This document shows, piece after piece, positions 8,055-46,470 of a DNA stretch of 46,470 nt. The DNA comes from a virus, in the IMG/VR virus record IMGVR_UViG_3300017637_000006, positions 1-46,470 of that record. One strand, written 5' to 3'. The number at the start of each line of letters is the position of its first letter. The stretch's first letter is position 1. The position numbers were made by a program, and so were the translations under genes. The notes beneath the pieces were generated by a model. It saw nothing but the letters and a program-made list of their open reading frames with translations. It did no database searches and was not told the DNA's origin.

Positions 8055-8402
8055 TTAGAATGCGCGCTCCGGCACCTTTGCGACTTCGCATTTTCCGCTT
8101 CGACCGGAGCCGATATCCTTCAGCGCCAGCGTAAAGGACAGGTCGACCCGGTCGATTCGATATGAGGCCAAGCTGTCGGCGAAAAGGACGTCACCGGGCC
8201 GGAACACGGCGGCGTAGCGCTTGCGGAACCCGGTTGAGCGGACGAACGTCGTCACCGACCCGGACGCCTCGTCTGCAGTGACGTCCATCATGGTTCGCGC
8301 GCCGCTGGGCTGGTCGAGGTAACAGGTCAAATTTACCGGGGCAGTTTGCGCCGCTTCCTGAGGCGCGGGCGCGACGAGCGCGACAGCGATCAACAGGCTC
8401 AA
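8055..8402 (-). CDS. Small exported hypothetical protein, TTG start
   Basis: A 115-residue protein starting at TTG 8402-8400, overlapping the repressor stop as TTGA. The N-terminus MSLLIAVALVAPAP is hydrophobic and resembles a short signal peptide cut around residue 19 (EAAQ/TAPV). The mature part has two cysteines (in NLTCYLD and GKCEVAK), consistent with one periplasmic disulfide, and is rich in beta-type sequence. Co-transcription with the repressor suggests expression in the lysogen, where exported proteins sometimes alter phage entry; that link is inferred. Confidence 0.65.
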   Translation of the reverse strand: MSLLIAVALVAPAPQEAAQTAPVNLTCYLDQPSGARTMMDVTADEASGSVTTFVRSTGFRKRYAAVFRPGDVLFADSLASYRIDRVDLSFTLALKDIGSGRSGKCEVAKVPERAF

Positions 8403-9067
8403 GTCCGCTTCCCCACAAACACCACCCGCGCCACGATGTTCACAAAGTCGATTGGCTCCTCGTCCGCCGGCACGGATGGATTGTCGGACAGGATCTGGAA
8501 CCGGTCGCCCTTGACGCGCAGGCGCTTGATCGCGCCGACATCGCCGACCGTGAATGCCCAGAGCGCGTCCTGCTCCTGCACCTTGCGCTGCGACCGATCG
8601 AGCAGGACGAGATCGCCGTCATGGATGGTCGGTGCCATCGAATCGCCGCGGCCGCGCGACCAGGTCAGGAAGGCGGGCGGCGACGACGTGATGGTCTCCA
8701 CCCATATCTTCGGAAACTGCAGCACCTCGATCTCGACCGGACCATCGGTGAAGGTCGCGCCCAGCCCGAAGGAGAGGTCGATGTGCTGAATGCCGACCAT
8801 GGGGAGGTCGAAGTCTTCGGCGGATTCGGTCACTGGTGGTGTGCCGGTTGGTTCGGGTCCGCCCTCGAGTAGCCACTCCGCCGATACGCCCAGCTTGCGC
8901 GCGAACTTGGCAGCGAGTTTGCCGAACCCGTTCTGGCCATTCTCATAAGCCCGATAGGTCGTCGGATTGACACCGACCACCTTCGCGAAGGCCGCCTTGT
9001 CGGAATAGCCGGCGCGCTCACGCGCCCAGGTCAGGCGCTCATGCGGCGAATCAAGATCAGCGGACAT
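8399..9067 (-). CDS. LexA/CI-type phage repressor (XRE HTH + S24 peptidase)
   Basis: A 222-residue repressor expected to hold lysogeny and to self-cleave on RecA activation. Residues about 8-60 form an XRE helix-turn-helix (KAAFAKVVGVNPTTYRAYENG); residues about 88-220 form the S24 domain with the nucleophile Ser143 in GDSMAPTI and the general base Lys181 in GAIKRLR. ATG 9067 was chosen because longer starts would translate through the operators. It is divergent from the Cro-like gene with operators between, and leads an operon with the exported and HIRAN genes. A clear Ala-Gly cleavage site was not located. Confidence 0.9.
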   Translation of the reverse strand: MSADLDSPHERLTWARERAGYSDKAAFAKVVGVNPTTYRAYENGQNGFGKLAAKFARKLGVSAEWLLEGGPEPTGTPPVTESAEDFDLPMVGIQHIDLSFGLGATFTDGPVEIEVLQFPKIWVETITSSPPAFLTWSRGRGDSMAPTIHDGDLVLLDRSQRKVQEQDALWAFTVGDVGAIKRLRVKGDRFQILSDNPSVPADEEPIDFVNIVARVVFVGKRT

Positions 9068-9083
9068 TTCTGACCCGTCGCAT

Positions 9084-9144
9084 GCTATCGCGCTACAAAT
9101 CATGTTGCCACGTAGCGCTACGTTTGATAGCGTGGCTGCGCTAT
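9084..9144. promoter_or_regulatory. Right operator region between repressor and Cro-like gene
   Basis: Three sites with the TAGCG half-site lie in 61 bases: an imperfect GCTATCGCGCTAC (9084-9096), a perfect 14-base palindrome ACGTAGCGCTACGT (9110-9123) and ATAGCG-6-CGCTAT (9127-9132/9139-9144), the last overlapping the ATG of the Cro-like gene at 9143. A TTGCCA (9105-9110) with 17-base spacing to TAGCGT (9128-9133) could be the rightward promoter and would give an almost leaderless message. The half-site is shared with the left operators at 7599-7642. Confidence 0.75.
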
Positions 9145-9382
9145 GGATCATCATGCCATCATCAAAGAGCTCGGAGGGCCACACGCCCTCGGCGCCGCGC
9201 TTCGGGACAAGGGAATCGTCGTCGCTGACGTGACGGTTCGTTCCTGGCTCCTCGAAGGTCGTTCCATCCCCGCGAAGTACTGGGCGCATATCGCGTCGGT
9301 TGGCGAGGATGCCGGAGTCGAGGTCTCATACGAGCGGCTTGCGGCTGCGGCTGCCGCCCCATCCAGCGCGGAGGCAGCATGA
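9143..9382 (+). CDS. Cro-like carph-isopro-type DNA-binding protein
   Basis: A 79-residue protein, first of the rightward operon and divergent from the repressor, the position of Cro. Residues 5-50 (IIKELGGPHALGAALR, then VADVTVRSWLLEGRSIPAKYW) follow the small helix-turn-helix family called carph-isopro, named for the R-S-I-P-type turn. It is expected to bind the operators listed here and shut down repressor synthesis in lytic growth. The C-terminal Ala-rich tail is probably disordered. The role follows from fold and position. Confidence 0.75.
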   Translation: MDHHAIIKELGGPHALGAALRDKGIVVADVTVRSWLLEGRSIPAKYWAHIASVGEDAGVEVSYERLAAAAAAPSSAEAA

Positions 9383-37474: not shown

Positions 37475-37491
37475 TTCAAAGGATGTGCGCG

Positions 37492-40080
37492 GTGGGTGCA
37501 ATCGAGACGGCTCGGGATGCTCTGTTTGGCAACCCGCCAAATCCCGCACAAGAGCCTTCGCGAGAGGGCATGCTGGCCGCTGTCACCGAGCTCGCCGACT
37601 CCGTTGCGACCGTGGGCCTTGGCGCGCTGCTTAGCGCGACCTTCACCACGCTCGCCTCCGCCAACGCAAACCTCACCTATGATGCCGGGTCGGTCGCGCT
37701 CATTTATGACGACACCGTAAATGACCTTGCAGTTAAATCCGGCGCGAGTGGATCCGGCTCATGGACGCTGACCACGATCCTCCGAGATGCGCTGGGCGGC
37801 GCGAGCTACGCGAGCCTTGCAATGGACTGGGCGAGCAAACCGAGCGGAGAGGTAGACCCTGCTTACCCGGGGCTGCTGTCGGCGCTGCAATATGCACAGA
37901 ACGCCGCAGCAGTTCTCGCGGACCCAGATTTCGTTGCGGTCACCGCCGCCCTGAATGCCATCGGCACGGTCGCGGATGGCATTGATGACGTGAACGCCGT
38001 AGCCGCCGGAATTGCCGCGGTTGAGGTGGTCGCGGACAACATCGATGACATCACTGCGCTGGTTGCGCCTGTCGCGCCAGTCACCCTCTACCTGACCCGC
38101 ACACTGACCGGCGACGATCTGCGCCGCCATATCTACGCCGAGATAGACTCGCCCGACCTGATGGCGAGTGTCATTACGATCCCGTCGAACAGCGAAGAAG
38201 CGCTGCCGCTGGGAGCGGCGTTCGCCGGCACCAACACCGGCACAGGCTTGATCCAATTCGCATCCGACGCAACCGGTGATGCCGTCATCACCCCGGCGAA
38301 GGCTGGCTATCTGTATGTCCCGCCTGGCGGCTCGTTCCGGCTAGAGCAGCGCACGACCGATAATTGGGTGCTGTCGGGCGACCTGAGCAACGAAGCGAAC
38401 GCCTTCACGGTCAAGCTGTTCTTCGACCCATCCACCGACGCAGCGGCGTTTCAGGAGCGCACGGGTGCATCTGCGACCACGGCGGCGGGTGACGGCGATG
38501 TCATGGGTACGCTGGTCAACAAGGGGACGCATGGCGGCTATGCGGTCGCGCGCACCGATGTTCGCCGCCCGACGCGCGAGATCGACGCGGACGGCTTCTG
38601 GCGGTTCGTCACGGACGGCAACTCGACCGCGAGCGATGCCGACTTCCTCGAAATTCAGGGCGTCGAGATCGACTTCACCAAGCTGAACCTATTCGTCGCG
38701 TTCCAGCAGCTTTCCTATGGGTACGCGGACGGCATCGTTTCGCTTTCGCAGATTGGCCAATCTGGCGACGTTAGCAACAGCGCGTTTGCGGTTTCGCAGA
38801 CCGCTCTTTCGGCATCCATCCCGACCGACTTCGCGTTCCAAATGGGGGTGTCTCCAAATCGACTGAGTGCCAACGTCGCCGGGGTTAATCCCGAGCGCGT
38901 GCACGTCATGGAATGGCGTAAAACAGCCAACAACGTCGCGGCAACGATCACCGTGGACGGGTTCGAGATTACCAGTTCGGGCGCCGTCGGCCTTCCCGCG
39001 CTCGCGAACACGACCGCCCTCGTAACTGCGACCGTGCGTCTTATCATGGGCGCGAATCCCGGCAACGAAGGCCAGAACGGCGCGATCCAGCACAGCAACA
39101 CGGCATTCTATGGCGTCATCGCAACCGACGCCGTGTTGAACACGACGCAACGCGCTTCGATCCGCGCATATCTGGAAAGCAAGGCGCACGCGGCGATTCC
39201 AGACCTTCCCAGCTATGCCGATCTGACCGCGCTTGAGACCGCGCGCACGACGCTGATTACCGAAGTGTTTGGCAGCGGCACGCTCCCGACCGATCTGGCG
39301 ACGCTGGCAACCGACGCCGCGCCGCCGCTGACCGGCTTGACCAACCTTGCCAGCGTCCAGAAAATGACGATCCCCGGCGAGGCGGACACCAATATCAAGC
39401 CGCGCCTCTGGACCCCGAACAGCCCGCGCACCGATGTAGTCGCGCTGGTGTGGGCGGGTCACGCGGCGGGTTGGGGCGCGAACGGCATCCGCGATCAGGT
39501 CATTCAGCCGATGCTGGCGGCTGGCGTCCCGATTGTGTCGATGGTCCTGCCCGATGGGCCGAACGATTACACGTCGGGAAGTCCGGCCAATCATGCCACG
39601 AACCTGACCCCGTATGCCGAATGGGTGCGCCAGGCCGTGGTCGCAGTCAACACGCTGCTTGACCGGTATCCGGGTGCAGAAGTCATTATGACCGGCATTT
39701 CGGGCGGCGGCTGGGCGACGATGCTCTGTGCCGCGATCGACGCGCGCATCACGAAGTCGGTCCAGTTCGTCGGATCGATGCCGTCCGACCGCTACGTCAA
39801 TGTCGATTACGAACAGTGGCACACGCAGATCACGGCGGATTACTACGACCTGTATCTGATGGCCGCTGCGGATGGTCGGCGCCACCTGCAAATCCTGCAC
39901 GAGTTCGATGACGCTGGGTTCAGCCGCGCCGCCTATGAAGCGCAGCCGCCCTATGCTGAAGGGTTGGCGGCGCTCGCTGCTGACCTTGACGGCTTCTACG
40001 AGTTGCAAATCCTCGACGGCCATTCGGCACACGCTATCAATGCGGAAGACCGCGCGATCCTCATGGCCGAACTTCCATGA
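37492..40080 (+). CDS. Tail fibre with C-terminal alpha/beta-hydrolase (esterase-like) domain
   Basis: An 862-residue protein starting at GTG 37492 with AAAGGA 8 bases upstream; ATG 37483 lacks spacing for a ribosome site. The N-terminal 200 residues (LFGNPPNPAQEPSREGMLAA) bind the tail. A lectin-like domain lies about 320-580. From about residue 620 an alpha/beta-hydrolase follows: nucleophile elbow GISGGG with Ser737, an acidic pair Asp806/Asp807 in HEFDDAG, and His844/His847 in GHSAHA, plus the segment VWAGHAAGWG. It probably deacetylates or cleaves a host surface polysaccharide. The triad assignment is by eye. Confidence 0.8.
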   Translation: MGAIETARDALFGNPPNPAQEPSREGMLAAVTELADSVATVGLGALLSATFTTLASANANLTYDAGSVALIYDDTVNDLAVKSGASGSGSWTLTTILRDALGGASYASLAMDWASKPSGEVDPAYPGLLSALQYAQNAAAVLADPDFVAVTAALNAIGTVADGIDDVNAVAAGIAAVEVVADNIDDITALVAPVAPVTLYLTRTLTGDDLRRHIYAEIDSPDLMASVITIPSNSEEALPLGAAFAGTNTGTGLIQFASDATGDAVITPAKAGYLYVPPGGSFRLEQRTTDNWVLSGDLSNEANAFTVKLFFDPSTDAAAFQERTGASATTAAGDGDVMGTLVNKGTHGGYAVARTDVRRPTREIDADGFWRFVTDGNSTASDADFLEIQGVEIDFTKLNLFVAFQQLSYGYADGIVSLSQIGQSGDVSNSAFAVSQTALSASIPTDFAFQMGVSPNRLSANVAGVNPERVHVMEWRKTANNVAATITVDGFEITSSGAVGLPALANTTALVTATVRLIMGANPGNEGQNGAIQHSNTAFYGVIATDAVLNTTQRASIRAYLESKAHAAIPDLPSYADLTALETARTTLITEVFGSGTLPTDLATLATDAAPPLTGLTNLASVQKMTIPGEADTNIKPRLWTPNSPRTDVVALVWAGHAAGWGANGIRDQVIQPMLAAGVPIVSMVLPDGPNDYTSGSPANHATNLTPYAEWVRQAVVAVNTLLDRYPGAEVIMTGISGGGWATMLCAAIDARITKSVQFVGSMPSDRYVNVDYEQWHTQITADYYDLYLMAAADGRRHLQILHEFDDAGFSRAAYEAQPPYAEGLAALAADLDGFYELQILDGHSAHAINAEDRAILMAELP

Positions 40081-42012: not shown

Positions 42013-42519
42013 ATGCGAAATCTGCTTCTGGGCGCGGCGTCGGCCGCTCTCCTTTCCAGCGCTGCGGCTGTGGCGCAAACCAGCGATTCGGCGGCGGCTA
42101 CCGCTCCGACGTCGACGTCTGCGGTGGTCCTCTCCGCCAATACGATGATCACCGTGACTCCTGTGACCGAGATCACCTCGAAGGACATGAAGGAAGGCGA
42201 CGTGCGGATGCTGCAAGTCGCCACTGACGTGTCGGAGCGGGGCGTCGTGGTCATCCCGCGCGGCGCACCGGTGCAGGCGACCGTGACCTGGCGGACCGGC
42301 AAGGGCATTGTCGGCAAGTCCGCGAAGTTCGAACTGCGGTTCGACAAGGTGACCGTGGGTGGCAAGGATTACGCGCTGAAGGGCACGCATCGTCAGGAAG
42401 GTCGCGGCAACACCGTGGGGGCGCTGCTCGGTTCGATGATCATCACTGGCCGTTCGGCAGTGATGCCGTCCGGCCAGGTCGTGAACGCATTCACGGCGGA
42501 GCCAATCCCGGTCCAGTAA
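42013..42519 (+). CDS. Secreted protein at the end of the late region (moron)
   Basis: A 168-residue protein with a clear signal peptide (MRNLLLGAASAALLSSAAAVA, cut after about residue 21). The mature part starts with a Ser/Thr/Ala linker and is beta-rich: ANTMITVTPVTEITSKDMKE and GVVVIPRGAPVQATVTWRTG. This is like TrbI/conjugative-type cell-envelope beta proteins and sphingomonad chromosomal exported proteins. Flanking terminators on both sides (41922-41945, 42674-42702) and its own promoter-like TTGCTT/CATAGT upstream suggest expression independent of the phage late genes, possibly in lysogens. Confidence 0.7.
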   Translation: MRNLLLGAASAALLSSAAAVAQTSDSAAATAPTSTSAVVLSANTMITVTPVTEITSKDMKEGDVRMLQVATDVSERGVVVIPRGAPVQATVTWRTGKGIVGKSAKFELRFDKVTVGGKDYALKGTHRQEGRGNTVGALLGSMIITGRSAVMPSGQVVNAFTAEPIPVQ

Positions 42520-42673: not shown

Positions 42674-42702
42674 AAAGGCCCGGTCGCTGTGACCGGGCCT
42701 TT
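42674..42702. terminator. Strong bidirectional terminator hairpin
   Basis: AAAGGCCCGGTC (42674-42685) and GACCGGGCCTTT (42691-42702) form a perfect 12-bp stem with a 5-base GCTGT loop. A/T runs at each end allow use in both directions. It should insulate the secreted-protein gene from the accessory region to its right. Confidence 0.88.
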
Positions 42703-42747
42703 CCGGCGTGGCCTCGAGCCACTGCTATAACATCATTACGGGTTGGC

Positions 42748-42819
42748 CGCGACGCCTAATGCAGCACTGGGGGGCTCCCTAGGCTATACGTCCGAAACGT
42801 ATCGCGGTTAGGCGTCGCG
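42748..42819 (+). ncRNA. Candidate structured RNA, three-way junction
   Basis: A perfect 12-bp outer stem (42748-42759 with 42808-42819) encloses two further hairpins: CTGGGG-GGCT-CCCTAG (42767-42782) and ATACGT-CCGAA-ACGTAT (42786-42802). The only non-Watson-Crick pair in the first hairpin is a G-U on the plus strand; on the minus strand it would be an A-C clash, so a plus-strand transcript is favoured. It matches no RNA family known to this reader. A protein-binding or attachment site is the alternative. Confidence 0.5.
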
Positions 42820-43073: not shown

Positions 43074-43244
43074 GTGGCTGTCATCGACCCGGAATATTAC
43101 CGAAAACGTGCGCGCGAAGAGCGTGAGATGGCAGAGCGGGCGACCTGCCCGTCGGCCAAGGCCGCACATGAGGTGCTGGCGAATCGATATGAGCGAGCTG
43201 CCAATGGCGATGCTGTAGAGCTCTCGATCGTCGAAAGAGGGTAA
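43074..43244 (+). CDS. Small helical protein (56 aa), GTG start
   Basis: GTG 43074 is preceded by GGAGGT with 5-base spacing. The 56-residue product starts MAVIDPEYYRKRAREEREMA and continues CPSAKAAHEVLANRYERAAN, a two-helix bundle resembling small proteins of unknown function seen scattered in sphingomonad genomes (Y-Y-x-x-R-A... and H-x-x-L-A-x-x-Y-x-x-R-A). It is flanked by the two structured elements and transcribed alone. It is a likely accessory gene expressed from the prophage. Confidence 0.65.
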   Translation: MAVIDPEYYRKRAREEREMAERATCPSAKAAHEVLANRYERAANGDAVELSIVERG

Positions 43245-44505: not shown

Positions 44506-45516
44506 TCACCTCCCACTCCCTTCGATCTGGTTGAGAGGGCAGAGCGGGTCATGTTCGCACGTGCAGACCGCTTCCATCTTCCCTACACGGGGATCAGCGG
44601 GCGTGGTGGCGAGGGCAGCGTGCGGCGTGAACGTGCCACCCTTTGCGACAATGGGGTCATCCTCGGCCCATCCACCAAGCTGGAAACCAGACCAGACGTA
44701 TGCGCCAGCGGGTAGGTGTTCGGGCGGATCGGTCTCAAACGTATCCTCCCAATGAAACTCAGGCCCAAGCTCTTTCATGTCAGGCGAGCAATCGAGAATA
44801 ATGGTGTTGCGAAAGCGGTCGCCCACCTTCCCGCCGATTGCGATCAGGAACCACGGCCCATCGACCAGCACCTCCCGCGCACGTCCTTCATCCACGCGGG
44901 GATCAGCGGGCGTGGTGGCGAAGCGGAGCATGGCGCGGATGATCGCTGCGGTTAGCCAATGCGCTGGGATTGGACCGTCGCTCCGCGCAATGTAGTCGAT
45001 CTCTGCGGCATGCGGCAATGCGCACTTCCGCATTTCTTCCGCCAGCACCTCCCGCGCACGTCCTTCATCCACGCGGGGTGAAGTGGTGAGGGCGTCGAAG
45101 AACAGCTCGAACCGGCTGACTTCTTCCAGGTTGACCCACTTTATGCCAAACTCGCGCTCGGCCCTGTCCTGCGCCTCGCGCAAAGCCTTCTCGACGACGC
45201 GGTTGCGGTTCATCGCCTCCCGCCGTTCCAGCGTGTCAGTCATGGGAGCGCAGGGCGGTGCGGCCTCCAGCGCTTCAAGGATCGACGGGTAGCCAAGGTC
45301 GCGCGCGATCTCGTGCATAGCGCGATAGGTTTCGGCCTCCACCAGCGTGTCAGAGGGGGCAGGGGAGGGGGTGGCGAGTGCGGTGTCGATCTTGTCGCGA
45401 AGCTGGTTGTATGCCGTTTCGACGCCATGCCAGTCGCGGGTGCTGATAGCAGCGCCGATCATCTGTATTTCGCGGCGACGCCAAGCCACCAGCGCCTCAG
45501 TCTGTTCGTTGCTCAT
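44506..45516 (-). CDS. Repeat-containing hypothetical protein (336 aa)
   Basis: A 336-residue protein starting at ATG 45516, overlapping the stop of the tiny membrane gene (ATGA). Helical N-terminus (MSNEQTEALVAWRRREIQMI). Three linker-like repeats, TTSPRVDEGRAREVL, TTPADPRVDEGRAREVL and TTPADPRV, separate segments: one helical (ALPHAAEIDYIARSDGPIPA), one Trp/aromatic (DGPWFLIAIGGKVGDRFRNT, WEDTFETDPPEHLPAGAYVW). The last segment has CTCEHDPLCPLNQIEG, possibly zinc-binding. The repeats are exact at DNA level (see repeat entries). The modular build suggests domain shuffling; function unknown. Confidence 0.65.
   Translation of the reverse strand: MSNEQTEALVAWRRREIQMIGAAISTRDWHGVETAYNQLRDKIDTALATPSPAPSDTLVEAETYRAMHEIARDLGYPSILEALEAAPPCAPMTDTLERREAMNRNRVVEKALREAQDRAEREFGIKWVNLEEVSRFELFFDALTTSPRVDEGRAREVLAEEMRKCALPHAAEIDYIARSDGPIPAHWLTAAIIRAMLRFATTPADPRVDEGRAREVLVDGPWFLIAIGGKVGDRFRNTIILDCSPDMKELGPEFHWEDTFETDPPEHLPAGAYVWSGFQLGGWAEDDPIVAKGGTFTPHAALATTPADPRVGKMEAVCTCEHDPLCPLNQIEGSGR
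44589..44921 (-). repeat. 24-base direct repeat pair in the repeat-containing gene
   Basis: GGGGATCAGCGGGCGTGGTG and its next four bases occur exactly at 44589-44612 and 44898-44921. They encode the TTPADPR-type linker of the host gene. Repeats like this allow loss or gain of the intervening module by recombination. Confidence 0.85.
44865..45078 (-). repeat. 37-base direct repeat pair in the repeat-containing gene
   Basis: An exact 37-base copy lies at 44865-44901 and 45042-45078, beginning CCAGCACCTCCCGCGCACG on the plus strand. It encodes the PRVDEGRAREVL linker twice. Near-perfect identity over 37 bases points to recent duplication or conversion. Confidence 0.9.
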
Positions 45517-45644
45517 GCCAGCCACCCCAGCACCCAAAGCGCGCCAGCAACCGCCGCGACGAAAAGCGAAGTCGCGCACCCGTAGCCGAACCCGGTCGTG
45601 AACCGGTCGCCGATGTGCTCGTAGTCCTCCTGCTTTACTTTCAT
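45513..45644 (-). CDS. Tiny membrane protein (43 aa)
   Basis: ATG 45644-45642 is preceded by GAGGAG with 7-base spacing, and the gene is ATGA-coupled on both sides. The 43-residue product, beginning MKVKQEDYEHIGDRFTTGFG, ends in one hydrophobic span (SLFVAAVAGALWVLGWLA, residues 26-43) that reaches the C-terminus. This suggests an inner-membrane tail-anchored protein. It is shorter than common ORF cut-offs. Function unknown; small phage membrane proteins often modify host entry or lysis. Confidence 0.6.
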   Translation of the reverse strand: MKVKQEDYEHIGDRFTTGFGYGCATSLFVAAVAGALWVLGWLA

Positions 45645-45817: not shown

Positions 45818-46470
45818 GCGGCGGCCCTGACATCCAGAAGCGAGCCGAACTGGTCGGCCAGCGCGGCCGCGAAGCCGGGGAAGGTCTTGCTGCGCTTCTT
45901 TGCGCGATCGGCACCCGGCGGCATCCGGTGCACCATCGACCACGCCTTGTGCTCGTCGGTGCCGGGCTTCGGCGGGATCAGCCGGTTCGTCGGTCGCAGC
46001 TTGGGCAGGTTGACGAGCTCCAGCCCCGTCGCCTTGAAGTAGGGGTCACCGAACCACCATGGCTGCACGAACTGGACCGGGTCGCGCTTCGTCAGCTCGA
46101 TCGCATGACTATGCATCACCGGGTTCTCGATGACGCGGCGGGGAATGTGGCCGTTATCGCGCACGGCGCGATAGAACACAGCGGCTTCGCGCAGATCGTG
46201 CCAGCGGAACGGGTCTGGCCCGTTGACCCGCTTGCCGCCGATGTAGAGCCATTTCGCGCCGGAATTGCAGAGCACGGTGCACGGCGGATGCATAACGGCG
46301 AGCAGATCCCAGCCATCGTCGAGGTGGTCGAGTAGATTGCCCCGAATATGGCGGTTGCTGCGGTCGTCGGCGGGTTCCAGATCGCAGGACCATGCATCGT
46401 ACCCGCGCGCTTCGAAGGCGCGGCGCAGGACGCCGCTGCGTTCGCAGCCTATGAGGACGCGGGCGGTCAT
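45814..46470 (-). CDS. Cytosine-5 DNA methyltransferase-like protein
   Basis: A 218-residue protein whose ATG is the last three bases of the window. Motif I is VLIGCERSGVLRRAFEARGY (5-24), motif IV is MHPPCT (60-65) with the catalytic Cys64, and motif VI is IENP (near 114-117); LRPTNRLIPP lies where the recognition region begins. It is short for a C5 enzyme and probably has a minimal target domain. It may protect the phage from restriction. If the phage genome is circular the gene follows the integrase stop directly. Confidence 0.8.
   Translation of the reverse strand: MTARVLIGCERSGVLRRAFEARGYDAWSCDLEPADDRSNRHIRGNLLDHLDDGWDLLAVMHPPCTVLCNSGAKWLYIGGKRVNGPDPFRWHDLREAAVFYRAVRDNGHIPRRVIENPVMHSHAIELTKRDPVQFVQPWWFGDPYFKATGLELVNLPKLRPTNRLIPPKPGTDEHKAWSMVHRMPPGADRAKKRSKTFPGFAAALADQFGSLLDVRAAA

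Follow-up and report, generated by a model that had tools for sequence, protein, structure and literature searches.

The right end of the phage record

The window considered here is the whole of virus record IMGVR_UViG_3300017637_000006 (positions 1 to 46,470), a 46.5-kb record of a temperate siphophage. The integrase gene (1-1107) and a CI-like repressor gene (8399-9289) lie on the minus strand, exonuclease and helicase genes are also encoded, and the plus strand carries the terminase, portal, capsid and tail genes, with a methyltransferase at the right end. Relatives of the tail protein were found in Sphingopyxis and Sphingomonas genomes, and no tRNA or tmRNA was detected within the window. 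Both ends of the record coincide exactly with the ends of open reading frames (the integrase stop at 1 and the methyltransferase start at 46470), which suggests that the window is a provirus trimmed to gene borders; as the right end was placed by software, the phage location of the element described below rests on the phage-type genes that flank it on both sides.

Three predicted proteins of this region are worth noting. The 865-residue product of 37483-40080, encoded after the tail fibre gene, has an N-terminus matching tail-gene neighbours in relatives and a C-terminal part that may be a receptor-modifying domain, with a serine-hydrolase-like motif (GISGGGW). A 168-residue protein whose start resembles a signal peptide (42013-42519) is encoded next to the element, and its sole relative found, on phage contig L113, is 29% identical and differently placed. 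Finally, internal repeats of the RVDEGRAREVL type occur in the 357-residue protein encoded at 44506-45579.

The element itself was delimited at 42748-42819 by an inverted repeat, the arms of which, CGCGACGCCTAA (42748-42759) and TTAGGCGTCGCG (42808-42819), pair perfectly around two hairpins. It is the only perfect inverted repeat of the window with arms of at least 12 bases and a gap of 25-70 bases, three others reaching arms of 10-11 bases. Its minimum free energy is -40.2 kcal/mol against a mean of -24.4 for shuffled sequences (z -5.52; 0 of 200 shuffles as good). An earlier note on this DNA had described a 12-bp outer stem enclosing two hairpins, and both its sequence and its coordinates are correct. 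The two neighbours that it named are also present: a bidirectional terminator-like repeat at 42674-42702 (AAAGGCCCGGTC-GCTGT-GACCGGGCCTTT, with a 12-bp stem and two U/A tails, as read from the sequence) and a 56-codon open reading frame at 43074-43244.

Homologues in Sphingopyxis chromosomes and elsewhere

We compared the element and its surroundings (201 bases) by blastn with 399 genomes from a single sphingomonad family and obtained a 61-base match of 79% identity (E 1.6e-5) on a Sphingopyxis chromosome and a second match to the same part of the element. The bare motif proved uninformative alone, since a scan of the same genomes gave 18 forward matches against about 50 for the control, and aligning these matches revealed two more homologues. 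A covariance model of five sequences (R1) gave seven strong matches over the 399 genomes. Strong matches in this family-wide sample were located in five Sphingopyxis genomes and in two genomes of other genera, and the copies of these last two appear to lie in mobile-looking regions: one (G305) is near HipA, HicB and DUF4011 helicase genes, and the other (G041) adjoins a serine recombinase and phage-like primases.

We then considered 80 genomes sampled from the genus to which G151 and Sphingopyxis indica (G027) belong. Model R2 found the element in 51 of these 80 Sphingopyxis genomes, 49 with one match and two with two. Its usual locus in positive genomes is the convergent gap between putA (a gene first read as astD) and a ccmI-like gene; where this gap is empty, the element sits elsewhere, for instance beside tRNA-Ser(TGA) or beside glucokinase.

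Eight Sphingopyxis sequences served to build a third model (R3), from which the window and the loci L178 and L179 were left out. On the minus strand of the window it scores 48.4 bits (E 4.4e-8 in 209 kb, a rough value, the models having had short calibrations), with 14 of 14 pairs standard; it also recovers the other divergent copies, and both R1 and R2 match the same core. The core of the window element, 61 nt from 42807 to 42747 on the minus strand, is a homologue of RNA-like elements found at several unrelated chromosomal loci.

No copy was found in other phages of the public collections, which like the genome collections were sampled and not exhaustive, and the element is absent from the tail-protein relatives (L107-L117) and from the capsid relatives. 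Viral pattern matches in L181, L182, L229-L234 and L283-L287 gave no acceptable model score, and two others were judged to be due to chance, L122 lying in coding sequence and L180 (32 bits) inside an apparent integrase reading frame. One of the tail-protein relatives, L111, has four palindromes in an array (1007-1236), each about 50-60 bases long and with perfect arms of 10-14 bp.

We considered whether the element is a DNA site, as an attP, an integron attC or a binding palindrome for a recombinase or regulator. The lead for attC came from five viral contigs (L002-L006) whose GACGCCTAA/TTAGGCGTC palindromes resemble the attC sites of integrons (one inner hairpin between GCCTAAC and GTTAGGC) and are matched by the arms of the element; in addition, the L179 copy adjoins a serine recombinase gene. 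The matching arms are nevertheless window-specific, whereas the core is conserved as an RNA. The attC core site GTTRRRY does have a counterpart in GTTAGGC beside the core, which is not conserved in homologues, but the inverse core site at 42754-42760 reads GCCTAAT and not RYYYAAC, and in place of complementary inner L boxes within one long imperfect hairpin the element has two separate hairpins. The missing inner boxes and the homology led us to reject attC, and attP was rejected as the phage integrase sits at the opposite end of the record. Homologues moreover show a promoter pattern at a constant distance, and a DNA site of any of these types is highly improbable.

A covarying three-way junction on the minus strand

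The conserved fold of the core is a three-way junction. In the window, P1 pairs CCGCGA (42802-42807) with TCGCGG (42747-42752), with 98.6% of cells paired over 35 sequences. P3 (42787-42801) is a hairpin with arms TACGT and ACGTA and loop TTCGG, and contains UUUCGGACGU, the most conserved part of alignment A4. The P2 arm (42754-42784) pairs GCCTA (42784-42780) with TAGGC (42758-42754) and carries an apical C-rich loop region, AGCCCCCCAGUGC. The consensus fold of the family has P1 as CCGCGA/UCGCGG, P3 as a hairpin with a UUCGG loop and P2 as GCCYR/YRGGC.

Over 35 distinct cores, 97.1% of the cells of P1 (6 pairs), P3 (3) and P2 (5) are paired, falling to 27-47% when the partners are slid by 1-3 columns; these pair counts are slightly lowered by alignment A4, which places L179 one column off. 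Three pairs show double changes, P2 having C-G/U-A and G-C/A-U/C-G replacements, and the observed covariation score was reached by none of 500 shuffles. The junction is maintained through compensatory and G-U changes. Covariation across homologues, which the earlier note had proposed as a check, was thus found for P1, P2 and P3 on the minus strand; its view of a compact structured RNA with a three-way junction was right as to kind and wrong as to strand and fold.

The plus strand had been preferred on account of the sole G-U pair of the outer stem fold, an observation that is true of the window sequence and is overturned by the homologues. Read on the minus strand, the pair cells of the 35 distinct cores include 31 G-U and one A-C; these classes swap if the plus strand is read, which is not tolerable for an RNA, and the minus strand is therefore indicated. 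RNAalifold run with no supplied structure gave -16.8 kcal/mol for the minus strand, recovering P1, P3 and P2, against -1.3 for the plus strand; with the window omitted, the values were -16.75 and -3.35 kcal/mol and the minus-strand junction was unchanged. A strand call from one G-U pair in one sequence can therefore mislead.

The 12-bp outer stem had been taken as the defining helix. The 12 bases that immediately precede the core when the minus strand is read (42808-42819) are the exact reverse complement of the 3' arm of the core, which includes the 3' strands of both P2 and P1, so that the outer stem competes with P1 and P2 by pairing the same bases differently. In homologues, the longest helix between the equivalent parts is only 5-8 bp; the outer stem is peculiar to the window and is a derived feature. 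It dominates the predicted folding of this copy, the best in-context fold having -37.0 kcal/mol with the outer stem in place of the conserved P1/P2, against -24.2 for the core alone. The very stable plus-strand fold of the window copy alone would suit a plus-strand regulatory RNA or riboswitch with this stem as its outer helix. Such an RNA has hardly any probability, given the G-U and A-C counts, the absence of the outer stem from homologues and a plus strand devoid of the promoter pattern.

The P2 loop comes in types: most Sphingopyxis copies have UCCAC, and CCCCCC is shared by the window copy and the second copies of two genomes, G436 and G485 (L276 and L277). In several of the L217-L223 loci, the core is preceded in tandem, at about 60 bases to its 5' side on the RNA strand, by a weaker junction built in the same way (GATCGCGG...GGACGT...GCCTGGGGGG...CAGGC...CCGCGATC), and some genomes thus seem to encode a two-domain version of the RNA.

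Predicted transcription, proposed function and relation to known RNAs

Of 51 homologues, 14 have a sigma-70-like pattern (TTGN3-N16-18-TAN3T) 5' to the core on the strand of the RNA, where 0.6 would be expected, and none has it on the opposite strand. The homologues are largely orthologues at one locus and do not represent 51 independent cases, and the pattern spans three unrelated loci. The distance from its -10 end to the core is 46-51 nt in 13 homologues and 36 nt in one more. In most homologues no clear intrinsic terminator follows P1. According to gene calls, nearly all copies are devoid of a co-oriented gene directly downstream, the one exception being L179, where the recombinase gene is next on the same strand. 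This makes a leader function unlikely and a stand-alone RNA likely, and does not support the earlier comparison with riboswitches; for the same reason, the homologues point to an independent transcription unit that has a promoter of its own. The phage would thus most likely carry a stand-alone small RNA, presumably transcribed.

Our preferred reading, which we consider probable, is that the prophage carries its own copy of a sphingomonad small RNA from an uncatalogued family, encoded on the minus strand and proposed to act through loop pairing. Transcription in the window would begin immediately 5' to the core and could reach the terminator-like repeat at 42674-42702, a possible 3' end of the minus-strand transcript, giving an RNA of about 130-150 nt. 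P1 and P3 would form a stable scaffold displaying the variable apical loop of P2, and this loop may base-pair with G-rich sites such as the ribosome-binding regions of host or phage mRNAs; its variability and base composition lead us to propose it as the pairing region of a trans-acting RNA. With such a mechanism, the phage copy would supplement the RNA of the host or compete with it. The outer stem of the window, an inverted copy of the 3' arm of the RNA, may lock it into a variant fold that keeps P3.

A real RNA could also act by binding a protein, as a sponge or scaffold, and not by pairing through the P2 loop. The junction and the UUUCGGACGU hairpin are the most conserved elements, which suits recognition by a protein, and the tandem two-junction version in L217-L223 recalls multi-site sponges; this reading comes with no candidate protein, and we regard it as a minority possibility. 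It is rather unlikely that the window copy is a relic from a host chromosome, neither transcribed nor used by the phage. This copy has no good match to the promoter pattern upstream of its core and lacks the G-rich 5' portion seen in the Sphingopyxis RNAs, and the right end of related phages has no copy, all of which would suit a relic. Unselected decay would however break pairs, and all 14 are intact, with compensatory U-A and A-U where C-G and G-C are usual.

No Rfam family was found at gathering score in scans of the element at gathering and permissive thresholds, and nothing convincing was found below it, in agreement with the earlier statement that no known family was recognised. Prophage-encoded small RNAs are known (DicF, IpeX, AgvB) and like the element have their gene within a prophage; their hosts are unrelated, and the family of the present phage copy is one that is conserved in host-type chromosomes. 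C-rich loops are known from the UCCC-motif RNAs of S. aureus and the CCUCC-loop RNAs of rhizobia, and the element would act alike if its C-rich P2 loop pairs with Shine-Dalgarno regions; this is a likeness of loop type and not a sequence relation, the C run being present in the window-type loop only.

The one experimentally characterised Sphingopyxis small RNA that we met in the literature searched is SuhB (RF00519), an Hfq-dependent trans-acting RNA conserved in Sphingopyxis (PMC6563040). Like the element, it is a small intergenic RNA of about 60 nt conserved across the genus, but it belongs to another family at another locus: RF00519 scores above cut-off elsewhere in the nine of nine genomes tested and has no match at the element. 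The 6S RNA (RF00013) shares with the element a usual number of one copy per genome and differs in fold; its model has no match at the element and a 6S-like match elsewhere in each of eight genomes. These eight sphingomonad matches are all below the Rfam gathering score (32-46.3 against 46.4 bits), so that standard annotation may miss 6S RNA in sphingomonads. No description of the element was found in the literature searched; many subscription papers and supplements lay outside this search, and an unnamed dRNA-seq entry may exist.

More tentatively, the element may represent an undescribed class of small RNA with a conserved three-way junction, kept as one copy per chromosome across much of the genus, which would have moved between loci and entered phages; the phage version, whose loop differs and which has gained a locking stem, would be a mimic or competitor of the host RNA. 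The analysis adds to Sphingopyxis an RNA family supported by covariation, together with a phage version of the same RNA. As almost all positive genomes have just one chromosomal copy, deleting it would be simple and the host and phage versions could be compared directly.
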